Below are positions 7,773 through 54,045 of a stretch of DNA of 64,000 bases, piece after piece. The DNA is from Anaerobacillus alkalilacustris (GTDB taxonomy: Bacteria; Bacillota; Bacilli; Bacillales; Anaerobacillaceae), in assembly GCF_001866005.1 (NCBI RefSeq), contig NZ_MLQR01000001.1, forward strand, positions 701,106 to 765,105, given 5' to 3'. Numbering within the stretch: the first letter of the stretch is position 1; each line of letters begins with the position of its first letter. The position numbers and the translations under genes are program-made. Under the pieces are notes generated by a model that saw only the letters and a list, made by a program, of their open reading frames with translations, had not been told where the DNA came from and did not search any database.

Positions 7773-7989
7773 AAGAAAAGCGCAAGCGCCTTGGTCACGA
7801 GCAGCTGCTCCTGTGCCACTCCGTTTGCTCGTCGCAAAGCAGCTTCGAAGTAATCCAAGTAGTAGCTTCACTGGGGCGGCCTTTGACAGAAGCCGCTCTT
7901 TGGCTTCCGAAAAGGACTGAAGTGACCGAGCTCGTAGGCGCTGAAGCTAGACAGTTTCCAAGTTAGAAACTTATAAATTCTGATACTGT
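7773..7989 (-). repeat. Dispersed repeat, copy R1
   Basis: The copy is about 215 bp. Read in the sense of the upstream gene ridA it starts at the T-tract of the ridA terminator with ACAGTATCAGAATTTATAAG, passes GTCTAGCTTCAGCGCC, and ends GGCGCTTGCGCTTTTCTTGT. The interior carries AGCTGCTC-type palindromes. The outer ends match copies near 10.4, 12.7, 34.4, 45.3 and 54.0 kb. Confidence 0.85.
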
Positions 7990-8048
7990 AAAAAAAGCTA
8001 ATATTTGGGTATTGGTTTTTTATCAAATATACCATCCCAAATATTAGC
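7990..8048 (-). terminator. Long-stem terminator of purR-ridA
   Basis: A perfect 13-bp inverted repeat (GCTAATATTTGGG / CCCAAATATTAGC) with a partly self-complementary 26-nt loop is followed in minus sense by TTTTTT. Repeat R1 begins directly at this T-tract. Confidence 0.85.
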
Positions 8049-8101
8049 CACTTCGTTTTTATCATTCTCTTAACCAACACTAGACATTGCTAAAAGCAAG
8101 C

Positions 8102-8476
8102 TTACTTAACTAAAGCAATTACCTCTATTTCAATCAATACATCTTTCGGTAATCTAGCTACCTCAACACAAGATCTAGCTGGTTTATGGTTTGAAAAGTA
8201 TTTTTCGTACACTTCATTAATTAAAGGAAAATCGTTCATATCTTTAATAAAAACTGTAGTTTTTACTACTGTTTCAGCTGATGCACCAGCTTCCTTTAAC
8301 ACAGCATCGATATTTTTTAGCACTTGCTCCGTTTGCTCTTGAACATTTCCCTCAACCAGTTCCCCATTAGGCTTTAACGGTATTTGACCCGAACTATAAA
8401 ACAAATTATTTACAACTACTCCTTGTGAATAAGGACCAATAGCAGCTGGAGCTGCAGATGTTTGTACAATCTTCAT
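8102..8476 (-). CDS. ridA: RidA family reactive intermediate/imine deaminase (YabJ)
   Basis: RidA proteins hydrolyse 2-aminoacrylate and related enamines made by PLP enzymes. The 124-residue protein shows IGPYSQGV near the N-terminus and the signature [19 protein letters not shown], with Arg at about residue 102 that binds the carboxylate. The gene overlaps the last base of purR and is certainly co-transcribed with it, as in B. subtilis, where yabJ is needed for normal purR function. A long-stem terminator follows. Confidence 0.95.
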
Positions 8477-9321
8477 TACTCATTCTCCTTCATTTGTTTT
8501 AGTTTTTCAAAGAAGTTTCCAAATTCTACTTTCACTAATTTATCTTTAGTATTAACCTCTGACAATTTAGTCATTGAAATATATTGGTCAACAAGCCTTT
8601 CCTCTTGATGATTAGCCTCAACTAATACACCAGTACCAACAACATTTGACTGGAATTCATCTACAAGATTTATCATCCCTCGTACCGTTCCACCGGCTTT
8701 CATAAAGTCATCGATTATTAAAACATTTGAGCCTTCTTTAAGGCTTCGTTTAGCTAAAGACATTGTCTGTATTCTCTTCGACGATCCAGATACGTAATTA
8801 ATACTAACGAGAGAGCCTTCTGTAATACGATGTTCATGTCTAACAATACAAACAGGAACGTTTAAATAAGTAGCTACTGCATACGCTAAAGGTATTCCCT
8901 TAGTGGCCATAGTCATAATTACATCGACTTTCTTATTTGCAAACATAGTGGCAAAATAACGACCAATTTCATTCATAAGCTTTGGATTACCTATGATGTC
9001 CATCATGTATAAATAACCACCTGGCAATACGCGATTAGGGTCCTCTAACTTTTGACACAAATCTTCGAGAAATACCACTATTTCATCATTACTAGCTGTA
9101 GGGATATACTTTACTCCTCCACTAGCACCTGCTACTGTTAATAACAAACCAATCTCTTGATCTTCAAACATTTCTTTAATGATTGTTAAATCTTCACTTA
9201 TAGACGATTTTGCCGACTCGTATCGATCTGCAAAATAAGTTAACGGTATTAACTGATGTGGATTATGTATTAAGTAATTGGTCATGTCTACTAAACGGCC
9301 ACTTCGACGAAACTTCTTCAT
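8476..9321 (-). CDS. purR: Purine operon repressor PurR
   Basis: PurR represses purine synthesis genes by binding PurBox DNA, and PRPP relieves repression. The 281-residue protein has an N-terminal winged helix ([17 protein letters not shown] onward, residues about 1-75) and a C-terminal phosphoribosyltransferase-like domain with the PRPP loop [17 protein letters not shown] near residues 197-213. The start is the ATG at 9321 behind TTGGAGGTAGTT. It lies between ispE and ridA, the standard arrangement. Confidence 0.96.
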
Positions 9322-9378
9322 AACTACCTCCAAAACCCGAATATTTAACAGTAATACTACACTTTTGTACGGATTTTA

Positions 9379-10242
9379 TCAATAGTAACGTTCTCCCAGT
9401 AATCGTACAGCGTATACTTCATTACAAAAACCCCTTAAACCATTATAAATGCGCGCGGCTCTCGATTCGTGCTTGACGAGGGCAAAAACAGTTGGACCAC
9501 TCCCACTCATTAATACACCATCAGCGCCAAAGCGGATCATCTGCTCTTTAATTCGTTGCACCTCTGGATAGAGCTTAAACGTTACTGACTCTAGTACGTT
9601 CCCTAGTTGTTTACAAATATTTTCATAATCACTGCTGTTAATTGCTGATATCATCTCATTTATATCAGGGTGGTCAATCTGATCTACCTTTAAGTTCCGA
9701 TATATTTCTGCAGTAGATACACCGATAGGAGGTTTCACTAATATTATCCAACAAGGAGGTGGGGCGGTAATATGTTCAATCCTTTCACCTCTACCTGTTG
9801 CTAATGCCGTGCCACCATAAACGCAGAAAGAAACATCTGAACCGATGTATGCCCCTAGAGTCGCTAATTCATCTATACTCAAATGTAAACTCCAAAGTTT
9901 GTTTAAACCTCGCAGAGTAGCAGCTGCGTCACTACTACCACCTGCAAGTCCAGCTGAAACCGGAATATTTTTCTTAATTGAAATATGTACGCCTTTATTA
10001 ATTTGATAGCGGTCCTTTAATAACTGAGCTGCTTGATAAGCTAAGTTTCTACTGTCATTTGGGACAAAACCCTCAGAAACATCAACGATAATACGATTTT
10101 CTTTTAATAAAGTTAATTCAATACGATCTGCTAAGTCAACTGTCGTCATGATCATCTCAACTTCATGGAAACCGTCTTCCCTTTTATGAAGAACATCAAG
10201 AGATAAGTTAATTTTCGCAGGAGCTTTTATAGATATCTTCAT
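9379..10242 (-). CDS. ispE: 4-diphosphocytidyl-2-C-methyl-D-erythritol kinase
   Basis: IspE phosphorylates CDP-methylerythritol in the MEP isoprenoid pathway. The 287 residues show the GHMP-kinase pattern: N-terminal [10 protein letters not shown], the ATP-binding [16 protein letters not shown] near residues 90-105, and [10 protein letters not shown] near 245. The catalytic Asp and Lys surroundings look normal. It precedes purR by about 57 bp and follows sspF after a long repeat-filled gap, so its promoter probably lies in the 10243-10430 region. Confidence 0.96.
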
Positions 10243-10435
10243 CTTAAATCACCTTCTACTGTTCCATATGCTTAGGCTATTTTATCATTTGTTGCCTCTA
10301 CAAACCACAAATTTCATGTAAATCATGACAAAATTTTCTAGCGCTTACTCCTATTAGATTTTATCAGCATTACCTAGTAGAAAGAAGTATATAACCTTTG
10401 AATTAAGATTAAATGTATATTTTTCTTAAGCCTAT
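10243..10435. other. Spacer upstream of ispE
   Basis: No gene, RNA or convincing promoter box is seen. The stretch is AT-rich and carries whatever promoter drives ispE; the rest of the gap up to sspF is repeat R2 and a terminator. Confidence 0.4.
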
Positions 10436-10632
10436 TAGAAAAGCACAAGCGTCACAGCTCTAGGTGTAAAAAGAAATTATGCTTCTGCGCTTTCTAGTAA
10501 TGCTCTGAAGCAGGCTTCCTTTCATGTAGTAATTTAGGTCAGTAGCTTGACTGGGGCGAGCAAGCTTTCTAGTCGTTACGACGTTGGAGCTAGACAGTTT
10601 TCAAGTTAGAAATTTATAAATTCTGATACAGT
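10436..10632 (-). repeat. Dispersed repeat, copy R2
   Basis: This copy of about 195 bp lies downstream of sspF. In gene sense it starts ACTGTATCAGAATTTATAAA at the T-tract of the sspF terminator, contains TCTAGCTCCAACGTC, and ends GTGACGCTTGTGCTTTTCTA. The inner module GCTTCTGCGCTTTC...GAAGCAGGCTTCC is shared with copies near 30.8 and 34.5 kb and with the rRNA flanks. Confidence 0.8.
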
Positions 10633-10677
10633 AAAAAAACTGACTCATTTAAGGATCATCCCCTAACGAGCCAGTTA
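10633..10677 (-). terminator. Intrinsic terminator of sspF
   Basis: In minus sense the stem AACTGGCTCGTT / AAATGAGTCAGTT is followed by TTTTTTT. Repeat R2 abuts this T-run. Confidence 0.75.
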
Positions 10678-10704
10678 TCGTAACAAAACTAGTTATTGTT
10701 ATTG

Positions 10705-10884
10705 CTATTGCCTTTTATTAGCAAGCTTTTGTTCAGCAATCTCTACGGCGCGCTTGACCATATTTCCAGCATCACGCGAACGTATTCCACCCCAGCCTTC
10801 TTTTTGGACAACATCGTAAAAGCCAAGCTCTTTAGCTAGCTCTTCTTTAAATTGCTGAGACATAACTCCTCGCCTTCTGGCCAC
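10705..10884 (-). CDS. sspF: Alpha/beta-type small acid-soluble spore protein SspF
   Basis: The 59-residue product begins (M)[20 protein letters not shown] and contains [19 protein letters not shown], closely like B. subtilis SspF, a minor DNA-binding SASP made in the forespore. The start is the GTG at 10884 with AAAGGAG about 8 nt upstream. Its position between veg and ispE is the conserved one. Expression should depend on sigma G, but no box could be assigned with confidence. Confidence 0.95.
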
Positions 10885-10956
10885 ACAAACAACTCCTTTG
10901 TTGTAGAAATGTTACGACATTAATAGTATAACCTGCTGAGAACTAATTTTATCAAA

Positions 10957-11062
10957 ACAAAAAGAGGTATACTCACATGTCTAAATTTGGCACCTCCATT
11001 AAAAAGTATTTAATAAATACTTTTCTAGGGAGAAGTCAAACCTCATATGAGCATACCTCTTT
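10957..11062. repeat. Large inverted repeat between veg and sspF
   Basis: Arms of about 20 bp (AAAAGAGGTATACTCACATG and CATATGAGCATACCTCTTTT, 18 of 20 pairing) flank a 60-nt loop that itself contains AAAAGTATTTAATAAATACTTTT. Both outer ends carry A/T runs, so it could act as a bidirectional terminator for veg. Alternatively it is a small MITE-like insertion. Function is inference. Confidence 0.7.
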
Positions 11063-11074
11063 TCCAACTAGTAA

Positions 11075-11341
11075 CTATTCAACCTCTACAGCTGTAGGGC
11101 TTTCATCCTCACACACAGTTAATTGTACGGTCTCTGTTAAAACGTCTGTATAACTGTAAGACACTCTTTCGAAGGCGTTTTGCTCTTCATCTAGCTTAAT
11201 AATAAATACAGACGGGTATGTTTCTTCAAGTAAACCAGAACGTTCAACAGTCTTTCTGCGGCCACCATTCGCTTTTATTGTAATCCTCTTTCCAATATTA
11301 GCGTCTAACGTTCGCTTAATATCAACTAACGTTTTTCCCAT
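11075..11341 (-). CDS. veg: Veg protein (biofilm/spore outgrowth regulator)
   Basis: The 88-residue protein starts [20 protein letters not shown] and contains [21 protein letters not shown], the conserved Veg core with an SH3-like fold. In B. subtilis Veg stimulates biofilm genes and is very highly transcribed. The ATG at 11341 was chosen over an upstream in-frame GTG because it matches family N-termini and keeps GAGGTG 9 nt away. Tandem consensus promoters lie just upstream. Confidence 0.95.
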
Positions 11342-11366
11342 TATTGAAACCACCTCACTTAGTTAA

Positions 11367-11395
11367 AGTGTAACATAATCGAGCAATAATGTCAA
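11367..11395 (-). promoter_or_regulatory. veg sigma-A promoter P1
   Basis: On the minus strand TTGACA (11395-11390), a 17-bp spacer and TACACT (11372-11367) form a near-consensus promoter with an AT-rich upstream region. It matches the known strong veg promoter of B. subtilis in position and quality. Confidence 0.9.
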
Positions 11396-11406
11396 ACAAA
11401 ATTAAA

Positions 11407-11436
11407 ATTATAGCAAGGAAATGAATCGATTGTCAA
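11407..11436 (-). promoter_or_regulatory. veg upstream promoter P2
   Basis: A second minus-strand promoter, TTGACA (11436-11431), 18 bp, TATAAT (11412-11407), lies about 40 bp upstream of P1. An A-tract further upstream could serve as an UP element. Confidence 0.75.
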
Positions 11437-11570
11437 TACTATTTTTTCAACTTTTTTTGACTAAATATCACAAATTTTAGTATGGCTTATATTTTAGATA
11501 TTATGTAAATTAATTTTTATGCACTATGAATTCCTATAACTCAGTCTTTTTTTACTACTACAGAAATTAA

Positions 11571-11600
11571 ACAGGAGCAATGCCGCTCCTGCTTTTTGTC
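11571..11600. terminator. Hairpin after yabG
   Basis: CAGGAGCAATGCCGCTCCTG forms a compact stem-loop. A T-run follows on the plus strand and TTTAATTT on the minus strand, so it may be the yabG terminator. Confidence 0.6.
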
Positions 11601-11625
11601 AATAAACGTAGAAAAAGAAAAGATT

Positions 11626-12522
11626 TTATTTCTTATCATTCTTTCTATCGTAATAAATTTCATCATCATTCTTGGTTGGCATTCCCCTTCTTAATAGCCC
11701 TCTTGTTTCAATACCACCTAAACCTTTTTCTCCGGTTAGTGTATTTCTTAACAATTCCCAGACACTTACACTATCCATAAACGACGTTAAACTAACTTTC
11801 GCTGCAATGTATACTGGATCTAAGGCATGAATGTTTATTCGGTCAGGAGAGCTTGCAAAATTAGCCCCAGCTCTTATTAAAGTTTCAAAGTAAGATTGAC
11901 AAGCGCCTGCAAAAATAACCAAATGATCAATATGCGGTTCAAATTTCCTAGCTTCCCTTACAGCTTCTGCGAAATATTTTGTATTTCTATAAGCTTTCAT
12001 CTCATTTTGATCACCTTTACTGCTCATGTATGCGTCATGACCAGTAACAACAAGGATATCCGGTCGGACCATTTCTAATAAAGAGGTAATTTGTAAAGGA
12101 ATCTCTCTTTCTTCCATATGGACACCATAAATAGGGACACCTAGTTTCTCATACAAATCTGTACACCTCTTCAAATATACAGGATCTCCATCAATGTGCA
12201 AAATCCTTCCAGGAAGTTCAAAATAGGAACTATTTGATCGGTATCCAGCCGTCATCACATATTCACTCTTTTGCCTTAACATACGACTATCTTGTCTAAA
12301 TAACCGATAGCAATTTTCTTGTTTCTTCTTTTCTTCTTCATGTCTCAATTTTCTATCTTGTTCATTGACTAAAACTAGGTCATTTATTGGAGCGTCTGCA
12401 ATGAGTCTCATCTCTTCCCCTACAATTGTGACAGTTTTGTCATTATCTATTTGATAAATTCGGAATAATATATCATAATCATATGATTTTCTCAAAACAA
12501 AATCGCCGACTTTGAATTTCAT
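11626..12522 (-). CDS. yabG: Sporulation-specific protease YabG
   Basis: YabG is a cysteine protease (peptidase family U57) that processes spore coat proteins in the mother cell and assists coat cross-linking. The 298-residue product carries VVTGHDAYM (the conserved His, near residue 172) and FAGACQSYFE (the conserved Cys, near 218). The N-terminal MKFKVGDFVLRKSYDYDILFRI is an SH3-like segment typical of the family. The ATG at 12522 has GGAGGTG 5-6 nt upstream. It sits between rsmA and veg as in B. subtilis. Confidence 0.95.
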   Translation of the reverse strand: MKFKVGDFVLRKSYDYDILFRIYQIDNDKTVTIVGEEMRLIADAPINDLVLVNEQDRKLRHEEEKKKQENCYRLFRQDSRMLRQKSEYVMTAGYRSNSSYFELPGRILHIDGDPVYLKRCTDLYEKLGVPIYGVHMEEREIPLQITSLLEMVRPDILVVTGHDAYMSSKGDQNEMKAYRNTKYFAEAVREARKFEPHIDHLVIFAGACQSYFETLIRAGANFASSPDRINIHALDPVYIAAKVSLTSFMDSVSVWELLRNTLTGEKGLGGIETRGLLRRGMPTKNDDEIYYDRKNDKK

Positions 12523-12740
12523 AGCACACCTCCTCATCTACAGCCTATGAGAGAAGGTGTAAAACAGTGCGGACACTTAATGAATTTCATAATCCATCAT
12601 TATCGCCACTAAGATACTATATCTAGTTTGCGGTTAGTAGTTTTTACGACTTTAATCATAAGAACTTCTCTCCACCAAAATATTAAAGTACTTTTTTAAA
12701 CCAAAGAGATTTGTCCTAAATTCACAACAGTTAAAAAAGC

Positions 12741-13005
12741 ACAAGAAAAGCGCAAGCGCCTTGGTGGCGAGCAGCTGCTACTTTGCCACTCCATTTGCTC
12801 AGGAGCAATTGTTTTCCGTGCGACGAGTAATCGCAGGAGCAATTGTTTTCCGTGCGACGAGTAATCGCAGGAGCAAAGTAGCATGAAGCATCATCAAAGA
12901 AGCAATCCAGGAAGTCAGTGAAGTCAGAAACTTGACTAAAGTGACCGAGTTCGTAGGCTGCTTGCGTTAGACAGTTTCCAAGTTAGAAATTTATAAATTC
13001 TGATA
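12741..13005 (-). repeat. Dispersed repeat, copy R3
   Basis: At about 265 bp this is one of the longest copies. In gene sense it starts TTATCAGAATTTATAAATTT right after the rsmA terminator and ends GGCGCTTGCGCTTTTCTTGT. It shares a nearly identical stretch (12869-12945) with R6, and it contains a 34-bp tandem duplication. Confidence 0.85.
12801..12868. repeat. 34-bp direct tandem duplication inside R3
   Basis: A 34-bp unit starting AGGAGCAATTGTTTTCCGTG occurs twice without gap (12801-12834 and 12835-12868). A third partial copy, AGGAGCAA, follows. Each unit contains the palindrome CAATTG. Confidence 0.9.
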
Positions 13006-13008
13006 AGC

Positions 13009-13040
13009 AAAAAAACGTACAGACTCTGTACGTTTTTTGC
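13009..13040 (-). terminator. Intrinsic terminator of rnmV-rsmA
   Basis: AAAAACGTACAGACTCTGTACGTTTTTTGC forms a strong symmetric stem-loop with T-runs in both directions. It lies 60 bp past the rsmA stop and directly before repeat R3. Confidence 0.85.
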
Positions 13041-13097
13041 TTATCATTTAAAAATTCTTGTTTATTAATACTGAAACTTTATCCAATATTTACAACT

Positions 13098-14526
<1,429 letters not shown>

Positions 14527-14770
14527 ATAGCCTCCATTTTCCATTTTCTTAATAAGTGAATTTCATAACGCAATAATCGAGTCACATAAAGCTATATCTA
14601 GTTAAGAACACACTAACTTAAATGAATACTATCTTACAGACATAAACCTCCATTACGAAATCATTAATGCATCACTTTAAAACACTTCAAAAAAATTTCG
14701 CGTTTCTCTCTTATTAGTGAAACTAATTCATAGTATATAGCGTCTATATATACGATACAAGAAAGGTCAT

Positions 14771-14802
14771 AAAGAAAGAGGATGACTTATAGTCACCCCC
14801 CC
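14771..14802 (-). terminator. Probable terminator of yabE
   Basis: In minus sense GGTGACT ATA AGTCATCC is followed by TCTTTCTTT. It is a short stem but well placed just after the yabE stop. Confidence 0.6.
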
Positions 14803-14813
14803 TAATGCGAAAT

Positions 14814-16043: not shown

Positions 16044-16273
16044 GTTAAAAACTCCCCTCTCTACGGACCGAATTATATAGAGTTACAATATTATTGTCAA
16101 TGGCAATAAATCCCTCCCTTGATTGTCTTATGTTGAATTATCCATAAAAAAAGAAAAAAAAGGAACAAAAACCTTTCGACAAGACTAGCATATGTGCGGT
16201 CCCCTTCATGTAGAACAAAATAGAAGCTAGGTTTTGATAGACATAATTACGCATAAATTGATTAAATTCGATA

Positions 16274-17041: not shown

Positions 17042-17069
17042 CGATAAATACCTCCACTTAATTAATAAA

Positions 17070-17150
17070 AATTGAAAATGTAGAATGCCGAATATTTCAG
17101 TTATACATAAAGTATCAGACCGGCAATTCAACATTCTACATTCTAAAAAT
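17070..17150. repeat. Inverted repeat between metG and tatD
   Basis: AATGTAGAATGCCGAA and the arm TTCAACATTCTACATT pair imperfectly around a 40-nt loop. The element could be a weak terminator or attenuator between metG and tatD. No T-tract makes it a clear intrinsic terminator. Confidence 0.55.
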
Positions 17151-17155
17151 TATAT

Positions 17156-19120
<1,965 letters not shown>

Positions 19121-28429: not shown

Positions 28430-28544
28430 ACCTAGCAACGTCCTACTCTCACAAGGGGAAGCCCCTAACTACCATCGGCGCAAAAGAGCTTAACGATCGT
28501 GTTCGGCATGGGAACGAGTGTGACCTCTTCGCTATCGCCACTAG
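28430..28544 (-). rRNA. rrf: 5S ribosomal RNA (locus A)
   Basis: The reverse complement runs GTGGCGATAGCGAAGAGGTC ... GCCGATGGTAGTTAGGGGC ... GTAGGACGTTGC, a full-length bacillar 5S rRNA of about 115 nt. It is identical to the copy at 62343-62457. It is preceded by the usual 23S-5S spacer (TTATCTAGTTTTGAAAGAAT), but there is no 23S gene. Confidence 0.95.
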
Positions 28545-28591
28545 ATAATATATTTAGTTGAAAGAAATCATTCTTTCAAAACTAGATAACA

Positions 28592-28922
28592 GTCCCAGTG
28601 TGGCCGATCACCCTCTCAGGTCGGCTACGCATCGTCGCCTTGGTAAGCCGTTACCTTACCAACTAGCTAATGCGACGCGGGCCCATCCTGTAGTGTTAGG
28701 TAAACCCAACTTTCACTTTAGAACCATGAGGCTCCAAAGATTATCCGGTATTAGCTTCGGTTTCCCGAAGTTATCCCAGTCTACAGGGCAGGTTGCCCAC
28801 GTGTTACTCACCCGTCCGCCGCTAACTCTCATAAAGCAAGCTTTAATTGAGTTCGCTCGACTTGCATGTATTAGGCACGCCGCCAGCGTTCGTCCTGAGC
28901 CAGGATCAAACTCTCCATAAAA
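28592..28922 (-). rRNA. rrs: 16S rRNA 5' fragment (331 nt, locus A)
   Basis: From 28922 the minus strand reads GGAGAGTTTGATCCTGGCTC and continues through the normal 5' domain to CCACACTGGGAC, about position 320-331. There it joins the 23S-5S spacer directly. The remaining 1.2 kb of 16S, the ITS and all of 23S are missing. The locus sits where B. subtilis has rrnA. An assembly collapse is more likely than true loss, because locus B breaks at the same 16S base. Confidence 0.93.
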
Positions 28923-29045
28923 GTGTTTGATAAAGCTCAAAAATTTAAATTCATTGACGAGATATTTACTATCTCTTTAATTCGCTTGGCTGTGTGTTCA
29001 GTTTTCAAAGAACAATACTTTCGTCTTTAAATCGACAAGGATTTA

Positions 29046-29294: not shown

Positions 29295-29450
29295 GCAGCT
29301 GCTCTTCTAGCAGCGGTCTAAAAAAGGCTTCGCAGAAGCAAAACTGCACGAAGCCATTTAGAGATGTGTTTCATAATTGAAAGCACTAGCTTAACTGAAG
29401 TGACCGAGCTCGTAGGCTGCTTACGCTAGACGGTTCTAAGTTAGAATTTT
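29295..29450 (-). repeat. Dispersed repeat, copy R4 (partial)
   Basis: Tail features (TTCTAACTTAGAACCGTCTAGC, GAGCTCGGTCACTTCAGTT) and an inner AGCTGCTC block are present in gene sense after the bofA terminator. The GCGCTTGCGCTTTTCT end is not found. Confidence 0.7.
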
Positions 29451-29467
29451 TTTACTTTCTTACTTTG

Positions 29468-29500
29468 TAAAAAAGACCATGAGTTCTTGACTCAGGTCTT
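29468..29500 (-). terminator. Terminator of bofA
   Basis: AGACCTGAGTC...GAACTCATGGTCT in minus sense is followed by TTTTTTAC. Repeat R4 begins behind it. Confidence 0.8.
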
Positions 29501-30701: not shown

Positions 30702-30890
30702 AATAGAAAAGCGCAAGCGCCTTGATTATGAGCAATAGGTATGAAACCCCTCTGACAGAGGTCATTTCTCGGCTCCCCAGTACTTCTGCGTCTGCAAGCA
30801 CCGCTTCGTAGTAGTTTGCCTTGAAGCAAAGTACATGCAGTTTCTCAAAGTAGTATCAGTAACTAAAAATCAGTAACTTGATTAAATAAG
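30702..30890 (-). repeat. Dispersed repeat, copy R5 (inside the ebfC-recR operon)
   Basis: The end GGCGCTTGCGCTTTTCTATT lies 2 nt upstream of the recR AGGAGG site. The inner module CTTTGCTTCAAGGCAAACTAC...GCAGACGCAGAAG matches R6. The tail is degraded. In gene sense it begins after a stretch with T7 (near 30911) and an imperfect AAGGGTGCT/AGTGCCCTT stem. Confidence 0.75.
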
Positions 30891-34385: not shown

Positions 34386-34649
34386 AAGAAAAGCAAAAGG
34401 CGCCTGCCTAACGGAGACAAACACTGGAAGGTCGGCAAGTAGCGGTCTGCTCTTTGACCGCAATCTATGTGCTTCTGCGTCTGACAGCAATGCTTCGAAG
34501 TAGGCTTCCTCGAAGCAAAGTAGCATGAAGCATCATCAAAGAAGCAAACCAGGAAGTCAGTGAAATCAGAGCCTTGACTGAAGTGATCGAGCCGATGGCG
34601 ACTGAAGCTAGACAGTTTTCAGGTTAGAAATTTATAAATTCTGATACTG
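34386..34649 (-). repeat. Dispersed repeat, copy R6
   Basis: About 260 bp lie downstream of the ccm operon. In gene sense it starts CAGTATCAGAATTTATAAAT at the T-run of the ccmG terminator and contains TCTAGCTTCAGTCGCC. Its middle is almost identical to R3 (GCATGAAGCATCATCAAAGA), and it ends CTTTTGCTTTTCTT. Confidence 0.85.
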
Positions 34650-34678
34650 AAAAAAGAGACCATACCGGTCCCTTTTTG
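34650..34678 (-). terminator. Terminator of the ccm operon
   Basis: GGGACCGGTATGGTCTC in minus sense forms a short stem followed by TTTTTTCAG. It lies 10 bp past the ccmG stop and directly before repeat R6. Confidence 0.75.
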
Positions 34679-42815: not shown

Positions 42816-42897
42816 ATATATTTCTCCCCTTCTATTCATCTATGTCTCTATATAAATACTCCCTAGTTTGACTTTATAATGTAATCGATTTAATAAC

Positions 42898-43075: not shown

Positions 43076-43084
43076 CATATTTTT

Positions 43085-44530: not shown

Positions 44531-44555
44531 TTATTTCATCCCTTTCAACTATTAA

Positions 44556-45059: not shown

Positions 45060-45246
45060 GTTCTCCCCCCTCCCAAAAGTATCTTTAGTAATTTTATAGG
45101 TTAACTAGGTAATAGTTAAATGGAATATTACCTAAAATTAGTACCTAACAAGTCCTTGGTATGTAAAACCATTCAACATTAAAATCATAATTTCACACAA
45201 AATTATATAATCTACTATAAGATTACGTTCAAACCTTTGACACCAC

Positions 45247-45262
45247 TGTGAGAAATATCACT
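45247..45262 (-). promoter_or_regulatory. FNR/CRP-type box of nrfHA-1
   Basis: TGTGAGAAATATCACT (TGTGA-N6-TCACT) lies upstream of nrfH-1. In minus sense a TATAGT -10-like sequence at 45219-45214 places its centre roughly 41-47 bp from the expected start. Confidence 0.7.
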
Positions 45263-45297
45263 CATCTTTGTGAACATTTTTTGAACAAACTTAAAAA

Positions 45298-45363
45298 GAA
45301 AAGCGCAAGGCGCGCGCCTGGAGCTAGACAGTTTTCAAGTTAGAAATTTATAAATTGTGATTA
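45298..45363 (-). repeat. Dispersed repeat, minimal copy R7
   Basis: Only about 66 bp remain: both ends of the family (tail ATTTATAAATTTCTAACTTG...TCTAGC and head GCGCTTTTCT) joined by CTCCAGGCGCGCGCCTTGC. It therefore defines the smallest unit of the family. It lies just upstream of the nrfHA-1 FNR box. Confidence 0.85.
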
Positions 45364-45597
45364 TGCAAAAAAACTCTTAACCTTTATATATAGAATATTC
45401 TCACCTCCTAGTCATGTCGCTTTGAAGCTTATTATCAAAGGATATAGAGATTTTGTTAAAAAAAATCATTTTTTCACTATTGATATGTTTAGAAATGACT
45501 GGCACACAAAACAACTTTTAACATGAGCAAAAATGCCACAACTGTGATCATCATCACATTTCATTGTGACAAATTCATGAACAAAAAGTTGAAAAAT
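45364..45597. other. Spacer between nrfA-2 and nrfH-1
   Basis: There is no gene. On the minus strand AGGAGGTGAG near 45404-45413 looks like a ribosome-binding site, but no start codon or frame follows. The stretch holds an orphan FNR-type box (45543-45558) and could be a decayed gene or an older promoter cut off by repeat R7. Confidence 0.5.
45543..45558. promoter_or_regulatory. Orphan FNR/CRP-type box
   Basis: TGTGATCATCATCACA is a perfect TGTGA-N6-TCACA palindrome about 485 bp upstream of nrfH-1 and 95 bp past the nrfA-2 stop. No gene starts directly behind it on either strand. It may be a second distal nrfHA-1 promoter. Confidence 0.6.
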
Positions 45598-45599
45598 AT

Positions 45600-45640
45600 A
45601 AAAAAACTCCTTTCAAAGTGATGATCTTTGAAAGGAGTTG
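45600..45640 (-). terminator. Terminator of nrfHA-2
   Basis: A perfect 14-bp inverted repeat (AACTCCTTTCAAAG / CTTTGAAAGGAGTT) is followed by TTTT in minus sense. Confidence 0.9.
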
Positions 45641-45653
45641 CTAAAATTATAAA

Positions 45654-47126: not shown

Positions 47127-47131
47127 TATAT

Positions 47132-47659
47132 TCATTCCTTTCTATTATTAGTTGGTTCTGCAAATTTAAATTGTCCAGGCTCAAACCATTCAGCCGGTCT
47201 AAAGTCACCTTTATTATGCGGTACTTGACGGTGACAATCGATACAGCTATCATATGCACCACTGTGATCTACGTTTTGTAACCCTGGTTCATGACAACTA
47301 ATACAATTGTTATTAATAACTTCTTGCGAATCGGCTGTGGCATGTAATACATCAGGAATTTTACTAGCTCCAAGAGTATTCATGTACATATGACCTACCC
47401 CTGCTTTTGCTTTAAAGGCCATTTTAGCTGTAAAACTATCACGTGGTGCATGACAATCATTACAAGTTAATGCAGCATGATTAGAATTTGCGAAAGTTTC
47501 AAATGCCGTCCCCATGATGTGACAGCTAGAACAGAACTCACCCGTATCCGTCGCTTTCATCGTTCCAGCAGTCCCTGCAAAAAGAACGATACCTGCAAAA
47601 ATACCAATCAAAGTAAATAATAAAACTTTCTTGTCTAGTTTTCTCAGCAAATCTCTCAC
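47132..47659 (-). CDS. nrfH: Membrane tetraheme cytochrome NrfH (copy 2)
   Basis: The 175-residue quinol dehydrogenase has one transmembrane helix (about 12-32) and four CXXCH motifs (43, 66, 119 and 139). It is clearly homologous to copy 1 along its length, and the tails (SCIDCHRQVPH, GDFRP-EWFEPG) are conserved. The start is GTG at 47659 with a weak GGGAGAGAG site. It is translated together with nrfA-2. A well-placed FNR-type box and -10 lie upstream. Confidence 0.95.
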   Translation of the reverse strand: MRDLLRKLDKKVLLFTLIGIFAGIVLFAGTAGTMKATDTGEFCSSCHIMGTAFETFANSNHAALTCNDCHAPRDSFTAKMAFKAKAGVGHMYMNTLGASKIPDVLHATADSQEVINNNCISCHEPGLQNVDHSGAYDSCIDCHRQVPHNKGDFRPAEWFEPGQFKFAEPTNNRKE

Positions 47660-47777
47660 CGGTCTCTCTCCCCTTTCTTAAGTAAGTACACTATTGATTA
47701 AACACCTAATAACGGAGCTTAATACCGAAACTAAGAACATGTATAAAAGTAAAAATGATTTTTTTCTCTATGCTTTT

Positions 47778-47820
47778 ATCATACTTTCATACATTTTCCC
47801 ACAATGTGATAAAAATCACT
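47778..47820 (-). promoter_or_regulatory. FNR-type promoter of nrfHA-2
   Basis: TGTGATAAAAATCACT (47805-47820) is followed in minus sense by TATGAT (47783-47778). With transcription starting about 7 bp past the -10, the box centre is near -41.5, the textbook class II position. Confidence 0.78.
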
Positions 47821-48062
47821 TTTTTTGTGACGTAGTTGTGAACGATGATTTATCCAAAAAGAAAAAAGCAAAAATTTATTCTCGCGGGCTAAAAAAGCAC
47901 TATTTAGTGTATTTAGTAGCTACTATTTAATATTTGAACCAACCTTTTTATATTTTCTTTCAAAAAAATGTTTAATTTTATGAAAACAAACAACAAAAAG
48001 AGACTAACTCTGTAGAAACGCATAATGCGATCTAAGAGTCAGCCCCTTTTACGTTATCATCC
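47821..48062. other. Spacer between nrfH-2 and the peptide-binding protein gene
   Basis: No gene is seen. An imperfect hairpin (GACTCTTAGATCGCATTATG with CGTTTCTACAGAGTTAGTC) at about 47996-48053, flanked by A and T runs, is the likely terminator of the binding-protein gene, and possibly bidirectional. Confidence 0.55.
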
Positions 48063-49655
48063 TTATTTTATTGTTACATTCCCTAATTGGAACATTCCAT
48101 TTGGATGTTGCCAGAAACCTTGAACATTCTCACTAACACCTACAAGATATTGTTGGTGGTGTGTGTAAAGCATTGGAGCTTCTTCTACAAGAATTTCTTG
48201 TGCTTGTGTGTAAAGTTCATGGCGTACTTCTGGATTAGATTCTTGACGCGCCGCATCTAAAATCTCATCTAGTTCGTCATTTGCAATAAATGAACGGTTA
48301 CCAGCCTCACCATGATTATTAGAATGGAATAATGCATACATACCATAGTCAGCGTCAGCTGTAACAGTTACCCAACCAAGGATAAACATATCATGTTCAC
48401 CACTAGCTGTACCCGCTAAATATGCACCCCACTCCATAACTTCAATTTCTACGTCAACACCAATCTCTTTTAATTGAGACTGTACAAATTCTGCAGTATC
48501 CATACGAGCAGGGTTGTCATTAGTCCAAATCGTTGTTTTGAAACCATCTTCATAACCAGCTTCTGCTAAAAGTTCTTTAGCTTTTTCAACATCGTAGCTA
48601 ATTGGAGAAACAGTTTCATTAAAACCAAATACATTTGGAGCTAATGGCCCAACAGCAGGTGTACCAAATCCATCTAAAAGACCATCAATAATAATATCTT
48701 TATTAACTGCCATTGAAATAGCTTGACGAACTCTTACATCATCAAATGGAGCTTTTTGTAAGTTAAAACCGATATAAGCTAAACTTAAGCTATCTGTTTT
48801 TTCTACGAATGAATCCGGGTTAGCATCAATACGACTTACGTCAGTTGAACGAACTTGCTCAATAATATGTGAATTACCAGTTTCTAATTCAGCAATACGA
48901 GTTTGATCTTCTGGAACTACTTTAAATGTTACAGTATCAATTTTCGCTTGCTCTCCCCAGTAGTTTTCGTTTTTAGCTAACTTAACATATTGACCAGGTA
49001 CCCATTCTTCATAAACAAATTGACCAGTACCAACTGGATTCTCATTAACTACACTTCCTGGATCTTTCCCTTCAGCCATAGCCGCATAATCAGCTTCAAT
49101 TGACTCAAGGCTAATGATCCCACCACCAGTATGCGCTAAGTGAGATGGTAGTGGAGCAAACGGAAACTCAGTAGTAAATTGTACTGTAAACTCATCTACA
49201 ACTGTTACATCAGTAATCATATCAAATAGGAAAGAACGCGGTGAAGCAACCTCAGGATCAAGAACACGATCAAAATTTGCTTTTACAACTTCAGCGTTAA
49301 AATCTGAGTCATCATGGAACTTAACTCCTTCACGAAGCTTAAACTCCCAAACAGTATCTTCAACTAAATCCCACTCCGTAGCAAGTGCAGGATGAAGTTC
49401 ACCATTTGCATCTTGAAATAATAGTGAATCGTAAATATTTGTTGCTACATTACTTGAAGGTGAATCATTTGACCCATGCGGATCTAATGAAACAGCATCA
49501 GATGGAAGAGCAATAACTAAATCGCCACCTTCAACAACCTCAACTTCTCCTTCTTCACCAGCTGGTGTAGTGTCGTCTTGTGCACCACAGGCAGCGATTA
49601 CAAAAGATAACAACAAAGCAATTGTAATCATAAAAAGTTTGTTCTTTGAAAACAT
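48063..49655 (-). CDS. Peptide/nickel-type ABC transporter substrate-binding lipoprotein (family 5)
   Basis: The 530-residue protein has a lipoprotein signal (SFVIAACGA, Cys23), an acidic linker rich in Glu and Val, and the SBP family 5 core. That core begins GGDLVIALPSDAVSLDPHG and includes LREGVKFHDDSDFNAEVVKANFDR. It resembles DppA, OppA and GsiB; the substrate (di- or oligopeptide, glutathione) cannot be told from sequence. It is divergent from its permease and ATPase genes, across a 362-bp spacer. Confidence 0.9.
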   Translation of the reverse strand: MFSKNKLFMITIALLLSFVIAACGAQDDTTPAGEEGEVEVVEGGDLVIALPSDAVSLDPHGSNDSPSSNVATNIYDSLLFQDANGELHPALATEWDLVEDTVWEFKLREGVKFHDDSDFNAEVVKANFDRVLDPEVASPRSFLFDMITDVTVVDEFTVQFTTEFPFAPLPSHLAHTGGGIISLESIEADYAAMAEGKDPGSVVNENPVGTGQFVYEEWVPGQYVKLAKNENYWGEQAKIDTVTFKVVPEDQTRIAELETGNSHIIEQVRSTDVSRIDANPDSFVEKTDSLSLAYIGFNLQKAPFDDVRVRQAISMAVNKDIIIDGLLDGFGTPAVGPLAPNVFGFNETVSPISYDVEKAKELLAEAGYEDGFKTTIWTNDNPARMDTAEFVQSQLKEIGVDVEIEVMEWGAYLAGTASGEHDMFILGWVTVTADADYGMYALFHSNNHGEAGNRSFIANDELDEILDAARQESNPEVRHELYTQAQEILVEEAPMLYTHHQQYLVGVSENVQGFWQHPNGMFQLGNVTIK

Positions 49656-50017
49656 TTTGAAACCCCCTATTTTTATTTGTTTGTATATTCAAAAAACTAT
49701 TTTTAAAAACTAAAATGAATATAACTTAATTTTCTCAAAAAAGCAAATATAATATTAATAACAGTTAAAATAATTATTTTCTTCCTATTTTAATATCGAC
49801 AAATTCCCATGGTATAACTAGAGTTTTTAGAAATTTCAGCAAGTGCTGAATAATTATAAAAATCAGTAAACTTAGTTATCCCTCTAACTAAAAAAGCAAT
49901 TTTAGTATAGTATTTTTTAACATTGTAATATAACAAATAAGTGATATAATTATTTCTTGTGTAGCTATGATGCAAATTATGTCGAATATTTAAAATTTAG
50001 AGAGGGTGAAGTATTCT
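49656..50017. other. Divergent promoter region of the peptide transporter
   Basis: It holds a plus-strand promoter candidate TTGTAA (49923-49928), 16 bp, TATAAT (49945-49950), for the permease operon. No gene is seen. The AT content is very high, and short open frames lack ribosome-binding sites. Confidence 0.55.
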
Positions 50018-50914
50018 ATGATTGAACAAACAGACAAGAATTCATTTATGCAGAACTCTCCATCTAATCCTAGGTTGGAAAGCTGGAAAACTTTTTTTAA
50101 GAAATTAAGAAAAAACAGGGCTGCTACGGTTGGTGGAATTCTAATATTACTTTTTATAATAATAGCTCTTATTGGTCCATTCTTTGTTCCTTATGACGGA
50201 ACCGAACAAAATCATATGAACAAATTATCAGCTCCTTCAGCCGAGCATTGGTTTGGTACAGATCACCATGGTAGAGATATCTTTAGTCGAATTATCCATG
50301 GAATGTCGATTACGTTATTTATTGGTTTCTCTTCAGTAGCAATTGGAACCGTTGTCGGAGTGTTTCTTGGTTTAATTTCCGGTTACTACGGTAAAAGAAT
50401 TGACGCTGTTATTATGAGGACAATGGACGTATTGCTTGCTTTCCCAGGAATACTTTTAGCATTAGCTATAGTAAGTGTACTTGGTGGAAGTTTAACTAAT
50501 GTTATTATTGCCGTTGGTATATTTGCTATACCATCTTTTGCGAGGATTGTACGTGGTTCAACATTAGCAGTGAAAAAACTAGAGTATATCGATGCAGTAA
50601 AAGCACTTGGTGCAAGTGATGGAAGGATTATTTTCAAGCATATCCTCCCAAATGTTTTATCCCCTATAATAGTACAATCTAGTCTTTATATGGCTTCAGC
50701 GATTTTAACTGCAAGTGGTTTATCATTTTTAGGAATGGGTGCTCAACCACCAACACCTGAATGGGGAGCAATGTTAAGTGCTGGACGTAGTTATATGTTT
50801 GACGCTCCACATGTTGCTTTATTCCCAGGTCTGGCTATTGTTATCGTTGTATTAGCATTTAATATCTTTGGCGATGGCTTAAGAGACGCACTAGATCCGA
50901 AAATGAAAAACTAG
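50018..50914 (+). CDS. dppC: Peptide ABC transporter permease, DppC type
   Basis: The 298-residue membrane protein has a cytosolic N-terminus with LRKNRAATVGGILILL (the OppC-N segment), about six transmembrane helices, and the EAA motif region VKALGASDGRIIFKHILPNV near residue 205. The ATG at 50018 has GAGGGTG 9 nt upstream; a start 12 nt earlier is less well supported. It is first in the plus-strand operon, ahead of dppB, which reverses the usual B-C order. Confidence 0.92.
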   Translation: MIEQTDKNSFMQNSPSNPRLESWKTFFKKLRKNRAATVGGILILLFIIIALIGPFFVPYDGTEQNHMNKLSAPSAEHWFGTDHHGRDIFSRIIHGMSITLFIGFSSVAIGTVVGVFLGLISGYYGKRIDAVIMRTMDVLLAFPGILLALAIVSVLGGSLTNVIIAVGIFAIPSFARIVRGSTLAVKKLEYIDAVKALGASDGRIIFKHILPNVLSPIIVQSSLYMASAILTASGLSFLGMGAQPPTPEWGAMLSAGRSYMFDAPHVALFPGLAIVIVVLAFNIFGDGLRDALDPKMKN

Positions 50915-50932
50915 AAGAGAGGTGCACTAAAA

Positions 50933-51877
50933 TTGTTTACATTTATAATTAGACGGATTATTCAAACGATTCCTGTACTCATTGGTGTTACTGTTCTTGT
51001 ATTTATGCTTATGCACCTCATTCCTGGTGACCCTGCACAAATTATCGCCGGTGAGAGTGCTTCAGAACAACAAGTTGAACAAATGAGAGAGAGATTAGGA
51101 TTAAATGATCCATTACCAGTTCAATATTTTAAATATATAGGAAATGCAGTACAAGGTGACTTAGGGAGCTCTGTAAGAAACGGTCGTCCTGTAATGGATG
51201 AAATTAAAGGACGCTTTTGGATCACTGTAGAGCTTGCCGTATATAGTACGATTTTAAGTATTTTTATTGGTTTATTCGCTGGAATTATCTCAGCAACAAG
51301 ACATTATACTTTCACAGATGTCTCCATTATGATTGTAGCTTTATTCGGTCTATCAATGCCAAACTTCTGGCTTGGGCTTATGTTAATACAATGGTTTTCT
51401 ATCGGTAATATCAGTTGGATACCATTTGATACAAGTTGGTTTTCTCCATCTGGTTGGGGTTCATGGCAACAAAACGTTCTCCCAGTCATTACTTTAGGTA
51501 CTGGTGGTGCAGCAATCATTGCTCGTATGACCCGTTCAAGCATGCTTGAAGTTATTGGACAAGACTATATTCGAACAGCTAGAGCAAAAGGTGTGAAAGA
51601 ACGTGTAATTATTTACCGTCACGCCCTAAAAAATGCTTTAATTCCTGTTGTTACTATCGTTGGTTTACAATTTGGTTCTTTACTTGGTGGAACAGTATTA
51701 ACAGAAACAGTATTTTCTATTAATGGTATGGGACGACTTATTATCGATGCAATTCGTGCACGTGACTTCCCAGTTGTACAGGGTGCTGTTTTAATAATTT
51801 CTTTACTTTTCGTACTAGTTAACTTAATTGTCGATATTTCATATCGTTACTTGAATAAACGTGTTGATTTAGATTAA
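50933..51877 (+). CDS. dppB: Peptide ABC transporter permease, DppB type
   Basis: The 314-residue permease begins (M)FTFIIRRIIQTIPVLIGVTVLVF, the normal DppB N-terminus, from a TTG start with GAGAGGTG about 8 nt upstream. Six transmembrane segments and the EAA loop TARAKGVKERVIIYRHALKN near residue 220 are present. It lies 18 bp after dppC and 30 bp before dppD. It forms the membrane channel with DppC. Confidence 0.92.
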   Translation: MFTFIIRRIIQTIPVLIGVTVLVFMLMHLIPGDPAQIIAGESASEQQVEQMRERLGLNDPLPVQYFKYIGNAVQGDLGSSVRNGRPVMDEIKGRFWITVELAVYSTILSIFIGLFAGIISATRHYTFTDVSIMIVALFGLSMPNFWLGLMLIQWFSIGNISWIPFDTSWFSPSGWGSWQQNVLPVITLGTGGAAIIARMTRSSMLEVIGQDYIRTARAKGVKERVIIYRHALKNALIPVVTIVGLQFGSLLGGTVLTETVFSINGMGRLIIDAIRARDFPVVQGAVLIISLLFVLVNLIVDISYRYLNKRVDLD

Positions 51878-51907
51878 AAACAACCTAAACAAAGGGTGTG
51901 AGTTACT

Positions 51908-52945
51908 ATGAGTAATAATGAAACAATTATTGAAGTTCGTGATTTACGAACTTCGTTTTATACAGATGCTGGAGAAGTTAAGGCTGTAAACGGTGTAAAC
52001 TTCACTGTTCCAAAAGGAAAAACTTTAGGTATCGTAGGTGAATCTGGTTCAGGAAAAAGTATTACATCACTTTCGATTCTTCGTCTTATTCAAAACCCTG
52101 GTAAAATTGTAGGTGGGGAAATCCTTTTTAAAGGAGAGGACCTATTAAATTTGACTGAAGCCCAAATGCGTAAAATACGTGGCAATAAAATCTCAATGAT
52201 TTTCCAAGAACCAATGACTTCTTTAAATCCTGTATATACTGTTGGTGATCAAATTGCAGAATCTTTTCGAATTCACCAAGGTCTTGGTAAGAAAGAAGCA
52301 TTAAAAAAAGCAGTTGAAATGTTGAAATTTGTTGGTATACCTTCACCGGAACAACGAGTCAAGCAATATCCTTATGAATTATCTGGTGGTATGAGACAGC
52401 GGGTTATGATAGCTATTGCCCTAGCTTGTAATCCAGAACTATTAATTGCTGACGAGCCTACTACGGCATTAGATGTAACAATTCAAGCTCAAATCTTAGA
52501 ACTAATGAAGAAACTTCAAAATGAATTAGGTATGTCTATCATAATGATTACACATGATTTAGGTGTTGTTGCTGAAACTTGTGACTATGTTGCGGTTATG
52601 TATGCTGGTAAAGTAGTCGAATACGCAGATGTGAAGTCCCTTTTCCATTCACCTACTCATCCTTATACAATTGGTTTATTAAATTCACTACCACGTCACG
52701 ATGTAGATGTTGAAGGTGAATTAGAAGTTATTAAAGGATCAGTACCAAGTCCTACAAATATGCCTGAAGGGTGCCGATTTGCCCCACGTTGTCCACATGC
52801 GAGTGCTATTTGTGAAGCAAAATTACCTGAACTTAAAAAACTAGATTCAGAAAACGAAGTTCGTTGTTGGATCTATTCAAATGAATGGGATGGTAATCAG
52901 GAGGTGAAAAAAGAGTATGAAAAAAGAGCTCTTAAAAGTAACTGA
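51908..52945 (+). CDS. dppD: Peptide ABC transporter ATP-binding protein, DppD type
   Basis: The 345-residue ATPase has Walker A GESGSGKS near residues 38-45, the signature [14 protein letters not shown] near 156, Walker [14 protein letters not shown] near 178, and the C-terminal oligopeptide/dipeptide transporter extension with Cys residues ([16 protein letters not shown], about 285-300). That extension can hold an Fe-S cluster in some relatives. Its last 29 bp overlap dppF, so the two are translationally coupled. Confidence 0.94.
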
Positions 52946-53906
52946 CTTAAAACAGCATTTTCCGATTAAAGGTGGTTTATTAGGTCGTACAGTAAATCAT
53001 GTTAAAGCTGTAGATGGAGTCAATTTTACAGTATATGAAGGTGAAACAGTAAGTATCGTTGGTGAATCTGGCTGTGGTAAATCAACAACTGGCCGTGCAA
53101 TTTTAAGACTTGAAGAACCTACATCTGGACAAGTTGAGTTTGATGGTATAAATCTATTAACATTAAGTAAAAATGAAATGCGCAAAAAGCGTAAAGATTT
53201 ACAAATTATTTTCCAGGATCCTTATGCTTCTATTAACCCACGCCAAACGGTTAGACAAGTACTAGAGGAAGCTATGGAGATTCAAAATGTAGTTCCAAAA
53301 AGTGAACGGACTGAAAAAATTTTAGAGTTAATGGAAACTGTAGGCCTTGGTCCACACCAAATTGATCGTTTCCCTCACGAGTTTAGTGGTGGACAAAGAC
53401 AACGTATTGGTATTGCTCGAGCTTTATCAGTAGACCCGAAGTTAATTATTTGTGATGAGGCTGTATCTGCTCTTGATGTATCCATTCAGGCTCAAGTAAT
53501 AAACTTATTAAAAAGACTTCAAAAAGAATTTAAATTAACTTATTTATTTATTTCACATGATCTTGGGGTTGTTCGTCACATTTCTGATCGTATTATTGTT
53601 ATGTATCTTGGTAAAATTGTTGAAATCGCCGATAAGAAATCACTTTTTACTAACCCAAAGCACCCTTACACTAGAGCTTTATTATCAGCAATTCCAGTTC
53701 CAGACCCTGATAATAAAAGTGAACGAATTATATTAGAAGGTGACGTACCATCTCCAATTAACCCACCAACTGGCTGTCGTTTCCACACTCGTTGTCCTTT
53801 TGCAACGGATAAGTGTAAAGAAGAAGATCCAGTATTGAGAACGACTGATGAAATGTCAGATGAGCACCAAGCTGCTTGTCATTACATCGAAGAATTTACA
53901 TCATAA
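52917..53906 (+). CDS. dppF: Peptide ABC transporter ATP-binding protein, DppF type
   Basis: The 329-residue second ATPase shows [13 protein letters not shown] near residues 48-60, [15 protein letters not shown] near 156, Walker [14 protein letters not shown] near 176 and the C-terminal Cys module [15 protein letters not shown] near 285. The AGGAGGTG site for its ATG lies inside dppD. It pairs with DppD to power uptake. A strong terminator follows, then repeat R8. Confidence 0.94.
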
Positions 53907-53919
53907 TATGAAACATTCA

Positions 53920-53955
53920 AACCTTGAGATATTTCAGTGTCTCAAGGTTTTATTT
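53920..53955 (+). terminator. Terminator of the dpp operon
   Basis: AAACCTTGAGA TATTTCAGTG TCTCAAGGTTT is followed by TATTT on the plus strand. Repeat R8 begins immediately behind. Confidence 0.88.
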
Positions 53956-54045
53956 ACAGTATCAGAATTTATGAATTTCTAACTTGGAAACTGTCTAGCG
54001 CAAGCAGCCTTTCGCTCGTGACCAAGGCGCTTGCGCTTTTCTTGT
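53956..54045 (+). repeat. Dispersed repeat, copy R8 (plus-strand orientation)
   Basis: About 90 bp: ACAGTATCAGAATTTATGAA, then GGAAACTGTCTAGCGCAAGC, ending GGCGCTTGCGCTTTTCTTGT. Its orientation is inverted relative to all other copies in the window, matching the plus-strand direction of the dpp operon that ends here. Confidence 0.88.

Follow-up and report, generated by a model that had tools for sequence, protein, structure and literature searches.

Background

What sets short non-coding repeats down again and again, facing one way, at the T-tracts of transcription terminators is the question raised by a stretch of 64,000 nucleotides (nt) from the draft genome of Anaerobacillus alkalilacustris (contig NZ_MLQR01000001.1, positions 701,106 to 765,105 of the forward strand; the window, in what follows, is this whole stretch). 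An earlier note on the window had listed copies R1, R2, R3, R4, R6 and R8 as beginning at the T-tract of a hairpin terminator and running in one direction between shared end motifs, and had offered two explanations, a mobile element that recognizes terminator hairpins, as group IIC introns do, or an RNA extension of terminators. Our results argue for the former, and we consider the repeats likely to form a family of non-autonomous mobile hairpin elements in many Bacillaceae-type genera. Insertions are seen at the loci that were compared between related genomes, copies that carry the first part of the element (the head) lie mostly in one orientation behind a hairpin and T-tract, and a common head, core, tail and fold unites the copies.

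Placement in the host genome

The host genome (4.05 Mb, a draft of 50 contigs) holds 238 heads (35 nt, at most 3 mismatches; reversed pattern, 0) and 158 tails (at most 1 mismatch; reversed control, 0), and the same 35-nt host head was found in none of six congeners. Placement was scored in 864 kb (800 kb fetched plus the 64-kb window, about a fifth of the genome), where 62 copies bear a head and 55 of them are complete, having a tail as well; the complete copies measure 61-377 nt and make up 1.43% of the 864 kb. Next to the head, a strict terminator (score of at least 18, hairpin loop of at most 8 nt and a T-tract, by our own simple scorer) stands in 31 of 62 copies, compared with 31 of 1,260 random intergenic points (Fisher p ~2e-28) and 0 of 55 far ends read antisense, and between co-directional genes 44 copies are in sense and 1 is antisense (binomial p ~3e-12), p-values that are indicative only because the copies are related and both the terminator score and the gene calls, also our own, are simple. 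These counts bear out the suspicion in the earlier note that the regularity exceeds chance.

Along the element, both neighbouring genes run the same way as the copy in 44 cases, the upstream gene the same way and the downstream gene the opposite way in 13 (one at a contig end), the neighbours are divergent in 4 and both are opposite in 1. Tandem copies begin at the TTTTCT of the previous copy, mosaic copies occur among the host elements, and 18 of the 55 complete copies have a full-length partner at 95% identity or more. An autonomous copy was sought among the seven of 62 heads that are tailless, which, in this host sample, appear as 3' truncations. On host contig C1, an inverted pair of element tails surrounds shared modules at ~352880-353080 (L065), a composite or nested arrangement, and nearly the same terminator and element start recur at ~152107 and 290086 (L055, L062), perhaps through segmental duplication.

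Copies in the window

In the window, the head motif has 6 matches and the tail motif 6 (at most 3 mismatches), against 0.04 and 0.09 expected, respectively. Positions are those of the window.

7774..7989, minus strand: R1, complete copy (head 7985-7966, core, tail 7790-7774)
7990..8048, minus strand: R1 upstream terminator, read from the sequence (13-bp stem, 26-nt loop, T7)
10437..10632, minus strand: R2, complete but diverged copy (head and tail matches)
10633..10674, minus strand: R2 upstream terminator (score 25)
12744..13008, minus strand: R3, complete copy with the module repeated internally (head and tail matches)
13009..13038, minus strand: R3 upstream terminator (score 26), a palindrome also flagged by the feature scan
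28959..28980, plus strand: element-free site in the first rRNA leader that corresponds to the R9 site
29335..29468 (lower end approximate), minus strand: R4, with head AAAGTAAGAAAGTAAAAAA, of the family-wide type TAAGAAAG, and no recognisable tail
29469..29498, minus strand: R4 upstream terminator, read from the sequence
30705..30833 (upper end approximate), minus strand: R5, headless copy with tail and internal module only
34387..34649, minus strand: R6, complete copy with tail variant GGCGCCTTTTGCTTTTCT
34650..34676, minus strand: R6 upstream terminator (score 19)
45297..45365, minus strand: R7, minimal copy, head joined to tail with no middle
53920..53955, plus strand: R8 upstream terminator, with T-rich tract (score 25)
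53956..54042, plus strand: R8, short copy behind the operon called dpp in the earlier note
62907..62929, plus strand: R9 target, palindrome GAGATA..TATCTC and T7
62930..63053, plus strand: R9, diverged copy of the same architecture in the second rRNA operon leader, antisense to the operon

The head of R1, R2, R3, R6, R7 and R8 is TATCAGAATTTATAAATTTC or closely similar to it. In R1, R2, R3, R6 and R8 this TATCAG-type head begins 3-4 nt past the T-tract of a clear hairpin, and the terminator of R4 adjoins the copy. The start points had been read correctly, as had the direction, R8 alone among the six head-motif copies being on the plus strand and the other five on the minus strand. The shared head-to-tail design ascribed to the listed copies holds for R1, R2, R3, R6 and R8, and fails for R4 with its other head and missing tail. 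The terminator palindrome of R3 extends into the first head bases, and the R1 hairpin scored just 9 because its loop exceeds the scorer's limit; R7 (65 nt) has a T-tract and a weak hairpin (score 6.5). We also asked whether the head (TATAAA) contains a sigma-70 promoter; none was flagged at the heads of R1-R3. The genes flanking R1 resemble yabJ/ridA and spoVG. A T-box leader lies elsewhere in the window (55756-55986, minus strand).

Relatives across the order

In relatives the common design is a head TAAGAAAGTATAAA, a core GTCTAGCTCCAGCGCC, a variable middle and a tail GGCGCTTGCGCTTTTCT. With the exact tail as query, 299 genomes of the order from 116 genera, host included, were surveyed, and the tail was found in 80 of these genomes and 35 of the genera (control, 0), its number ranging from 0 to 107 within one genus. 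All 18 matches to TAAGAAAGTATAAA (at most 1 mismatch) in the host and congener stretches searched are attached to an element. Sequence similar to the R1 middle recurs in congeners at many positions, with an identity of up to 95% (76 nt, in G006), compared with 69-86% for gene DNA.

Placement in relatives was scored in two sets, one chosen by the tail and one by the core. The former comprises 72 copies or arrays, repeated sequences dropped, of which 28 have a head, 19 the core only and 25 appear truncated. The terminator score reaches at least 15 in 23 of the 28 heads and at least 18 in 18 of them (far-end control, 2 of 72), with 6-10 nt between hairpin and head in 19 of those 23; among the 47 copies with head or core, co-directional cases are sense in 18 and antisense in 5. 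The core-chosen set began with at least 127 matches in named genomes, of which 7 too near an edge were removed and 120 used. Among the matches listed, 55 have a head (at most 3 mismatches), 15 lie behind another tail and 50 have neither; the heads score at least 18 in 42 of 55, whereas random points do so in 48 of 565 cases and far ends in 1 of 120. Hairpin and head are 5-12 nt apart in 41 of the 42, and co-directional heads are sense in 26 cases and antisense in 5. Across 80 of these matches, the genera named are Bacillus (in the wide sense), Mesobacillus, Neobacillus, Metabacillus, Peribacillus, Psychrobacillus, Robertmurraya, Lederbergia, Siminovitchia, Sutcliffiella, Rossellomorea and a few more, together with Chryseobacterium and Paenibacillus titles that may be mislabelled.

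Three side observations were made. A third head subfamily (approximately TTTAGGAAATTATAAAATT) carries TGTGNATAA, which matches a reverse-oriented DnaA box; it occurs in 15 of the 120 upstream regions (L241, L251, L255, L262, L275 and 10 more), where 0.3 would be expected, an excess that may reflect one ancestor, the copies being related. In the arrays L113, L114, L116, L118 and L120, a fragment of the 3' part stands in front of a full copy whose own 3' end is similar, an arrangement that was not counted and that suggests template jumping. Finally, in genome G118 a second hairpin element is apparently nested in an arm of the first (L200, L205, L206, L209).

Empty sites and junctions

The gaps that hold R1, R3 and R5 were compared with those of congeners, in the case of R1 four of the six. 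At the R1 gap the terminator is present and the element absent in all four; at the R3 gap the element is absent in G001, G003 and G006, with a tail-like remnant in G005; and at the R5 gap it is absent in G003 and G005, while G006 holds another copy (core and tail). A sharper comparison was possible in one genus with 21 genomes, comprising G118 and its sister species. The G118 copy at locus B is absent in G304, G089, G312 and G300 (G306 and G310 have unrelated extra sequence), that at locus C in G300, G304 and G306 (copies or remnants in G312 and G308), and that at locus D in G300, G312 and G309 (copies in G308 and G089). At locus A, G145, G242 and G285 have copies or remnants, and G194 has none at the junction, its extra sequence lying further on; there the junction reads CCTTTTTTTGCATAATT in G194 and CCTTTTTT[element]TGCATAATT in G118. 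The empty sites that the earlier note had proposed to look for in sister strains were thus found in sister species, at the R1 gap and the G118 loci.

All four G118 loci are consistent with an element inserted in the T-tract or at its end. The inserted element starts ~12 nt before GTATAAA and ends in TTTTCT, and both of its junctions are T-rich, which leaves bases uncertain; no convincing target duplication is seen, locus A being readable with a short TTG(A)CATA repeat. Together with the enrichment, the orientation and the head-bearing copies of relatives, these empty sites give good support to the non-autonomous mobile element recognizing terminator hairpins that had been proposed. That placement results from an RNA extension of terminators is less likely, as orthologous terminators lack the element and R9 runs against its rRNA operon.

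R9, a ninth copy that the earlier note had not reported, is extra sequence relative to the first rRNA leader, in a gapped alignment judged by eye, and its DNA fold (z -3.45) keeps the architecture with different stem letters. Because it is antisense to the operon and stands behind a palindrome and T-tract, a DNA motif rather than a gene end may guide insertion, in this one case from an imperfect draft region. In both rRNA operons of the window (28430-28882 and 62343-62819), partial 16S matches overlap or abut a 5S gene; the two operons look collapsed, most likely as a draft-assembly artefact.

Fold

From GTCTAGC to TTTTCT, the element is predicted to form a 3-bp basal stem (AGC/GCT), a short internal loop, a 7-bp stem and then a 6-bp stem with a long arm, and a bulge of 4-5 nt lies on the 3' side between the 7-bp and 6-bp stems in 123 of 129 cases. 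Across 61 non-redundant end sets, pairing occurs in 85.5% of cells for the 7-bp stem (stem 2) and in 83.1% for the 6-bp stem (stem 3), above all of 500 column and 500 row shuffles, and with the bulge, which had been fitted, fixed at 5, the 6-bp stem is still above the shuffles (59.5% vs at most 49.7%). The host's own 24 sets give 69.6% for the 7-bp stem, not above shuffles (at most 70.8%), and the basal stem hardly varies and is uninformative for covariation. A 7-nt loop, AAARRNC, a pattern defined after loops had been inspected, caps an arm in 80 of 128 unique elements of relatives, with 14 different stem pairs, and in 0 of 128 shuffled ones. The tail (TTCTT) could pair with AAGAA of the head and the loop, a complementarity that may matter. 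In the predicted folds, the basal stem followed by TTTTCT gives a terminator-like 3' end, and the terminator scan flags AAGGCGCTTGCGCTTT with the tail at R1 and R3. Taken by itself as RNA, the tail from a copy in one relative folds no better than shuffles.

Attempts to tell which strand folds did not give a usable criterion. By folding energy, the antisense strand is the better one for 43 of 63 elements in the host and for 54 of 66 in relatives, and the sense strand for 18 and 12, respectively, a bias that we think stems from pyrimidine mismatches becoming G-A on the other strand. Single mismatches (GT 22-31 vs AC 10-13, mostly in one order) and stems 2 and 3 (GU 7 and AC 12 in relatives; GU 21 and AC 41 in all sets) leave the choice unsettled, the AC count in all sets coming partly from host GCGCAAGC-type copies that are out of register. 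Rfam gave no match at gathering score over the window repeats, and at five relatives' loci three sub-threshold matches, one of which overlaps an element (Atu_C9, antisense, 23.8 bits against a cut-off of 40).

Points against mobility and the search for a mover

A number of results weigh against a family of mobile elements aimed at terminators. Of the 62 host copies, 31 fail the strict terminator score, some because they are tandem, the TTTTCT of the preceding element replacing the T-tract, and R1 because of its long loop. Orientation is confounded with replication direction, 56 of the 62 copies being on the locally dominant gene strand; replication direction may therefore be part of the cause, and the other 6 (one between same-direction genes, two between convergent genes including R8, two between divergent genes and one antisense) are too few to separate the two. 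No pair of host copies in the sample reaches 99% identity, which gives no sign of present activity. Among the core-chosen matches listed, co-directional cases of the 50 headless copies are sense in 17 and antisense in 13, and 15 of the 50 have a terminator, which makes a simple rule for all copies doubtful; random orientation or a lack of enrichment, named in the earlier note as grounds for giving up the idea, is not what head-bearing copies show, while headless core-chosen copies do show little orientation.

The mover itself did not come to light among the enzymes searched. The host has 17 Y1_Tnp matches and 7 RVT_1 matches, and in a scan for the tail and the host head type only, element ends flank none of these 24 loci on both sides, so the full-length relative with a transposase or reverse transcriptase (RT) that had been envisaged was not found there; in the surroundings of the 17 Y1 matches (1.6-3.4 kb, some cut by contig ends), 2 have element motifs nearby and none has them around the match. 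Neither domain is constant in copy-rich members of the 21-genome genus: Y1_Tnp is absent in 3 of 21 (G312, the richest with 90 exact tails, G089 with 39 and G219 with 33), and RVT_1 in 6 of 21 with 6 to 29 exact tails, G118 among them, and the single RVT_1 match of G312 is damaged. Copy number shows a Spearman correlation of -0.18 (p 0.43) with RT matches and of -0.32 (p 0.16) with Y1 matches over the 21 genomes; either enzyme may once have been present in genomes now without it. Plasmid records gave no match to three element queries and phage records none to one query, and two tail matches on viral contigs are due to chance, an absence that counts against mobility because a mobile element might be expected there. 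As a separate observation, two host introns of group-II-D1D4-3 type (L168, L171) start with GTGCG behind a hairpin and T-tract, and are probably of class IIC to judge from this start and site.

Weighing the explanations

On the reading that we prefer, a family of non-autonomous mobile hairpin elements, a trans-acting enzyme would recognize the folded element and insert it into the T-tract beside a DNA hairpin. The 3' end of the element (hairpin and TTTTCTT) would offer a new hairpin and T-tract as target, so that head-to-tail arrays would arise, and insertion behind a finished transcript would do little harm, allowing a high copy number. In a bolder version, which we regard as unlikely, the family would be a bacterial counterpart of short interspersed nuclear elements (SINEs) aimed at transcription ends across much of Bacillaceae, a folded non-coding element whose conserved A-rich loop and A-rich head find hairpin and T-tract sites, perhaps by pairing with the T-tract, and whose insertion in one orientation would depend on some enzyme other than a known Y1 transposase or a standard group II RT.

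SINE-like retroposition, with element RNA copied into terminator T-tracts by a group IIC-type intron RT acting in trans, would account for the one orientation, the lack of a clear duplication and a fold with a 3' U-tract, and the two introns of putative class IIC in the host stand behind a hairpin and T-tract. A review (PMC3898094) reports that group IIC introns use a DNA hairpin, for example a terminator, for recognition. The idea is nonetheless doubtful, since six of the 21 genomes have tails and no RVT_1 match, one of them, G118, carries at locus B a copy that four sister species lack, the number of copies is unrelated to RT matches, and stems 2 and 3 of relatives have no G-U excess over A-C (7 vs 12). 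The group IIC parallel drawn in the earlier note accordingly stands for site choice and falters for mechanism.

Transposition as single-stranded DNA by a Y1 transposase of the IS200/IS605 type, which would make the repeat a derivative with hairpin ends like miniature inverted-repeat transposable elements (MITEs) or repetitive extragenic palindromes (REPs), is in our judgement unlikely. The hairpin structure, the single orientation, the short T-rich target without clear duplication, the 17 host Y1 matches and the absence of an RNA-type wobble bias in stems 2 and 3 are what it would predict, but Y1_Tnp is lacking in three genomes including the richest, no positive correlation with copy number exists and no element ends surround the host matches. 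Elements of this type are not known to need a target hairpin.

Host-driven copying, in which a fork or repair synthesis stalled at a hairpin and T-tract switches template and copies the segment between two T-tracts, would explain T-rich sequence at both junctions, the mosaic copies, the arrays with partial before full copies (not counted) and the lack of a constant enzyme among the two families tested; we find it distinctly unlikely, as head, core, loop and tail kept across genera suggest a recognition that plain template switching would not need. A functional RNA or reinforced terminator, selected in place and spread by ordinary duplication, is very unlikely despite the sense orientation behind genes, the terminator-like 3' end and the conserved fold and loop, because orthologous genes of sister species lack the element, exact tails vary as widely within one genus as reported above, R9 opposes its operon and Rfam gave no match at gathering score.

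Comparison with known systems

With regard to MITEs, which have terminal inverted repeats and a target duplication, TAAGAAAG is complementary to CTTTTCTTA over ~8 nt in the older head type only, and no duplication is convincing. The attC sites of integrons are imperfect hairpins with conserved ends and a variable middle that form arrays, as the repeats do, but their box sequences were not seen in the repeats (integrase was not searched). Compared by description only, bcr1 and other repeats of the B. cereus group are likewise intergenic non-coding Bacillus repeats, and Bhal-1 is a folded intergenic repeat family of a related species; in the portion of PMC3446304 at hand, bcr1-bcr3 are termed MITE-like and placement at terminators is not mentioned, and Bhal-1 of B. 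halodurans is given as 74 bp in 36 copies in PMC2267715. No description of the repeat family was found among the papers listed in searches of open-licence literature, an earlier one not being excluded; where the motif letters matched in papers, none of the titles concerned such repeats, and PMC2817692 has the letters in a Citrobacter REP.

REPs and their associated tyrosine transposases (RAYTs) share with the family many dispersed intergenic palindromes per genome, but the repeats are longer, have other ends than the GTAG/CGTC tags and finish in a T-tract; according to PMC3733652, REPs measure 20-40 bp and bear their tag at one end. A recent REP survey (PMC12306157) discards palindromes with T-rich tails as terminators. 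Surveys that drop such palindromes would tend to miss the family, and, for annotation, some of the terminators predicted downstream of genes in these species will be the repeat itself.

Group IIC introns also insert in one orientation behind intrinsic terminator hairpins, as head-bearing copies do, yet they are ribozymes with an encoded RT and a GTGCG start, unlike repeats of 61-377 nt with an A-rich head. No group II intron match was found over the repeats of the window and five relatives' loci with a library that detects introns in L167-L169, L171 and L173; the repeats resemble a group IIC intron in their choice of site without belonging to that class. Finding the mover could provide a way of placing DNA at gene ends while causing little damage. 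Although dispersed short repeats are widespread in bacteria, a family whose head-bearing copies mostly land behind terminators, face one way and share a fold across many genera points to a targeting rule, and such a rule is, to our knowledge, familiar mainly from group IIC introns.

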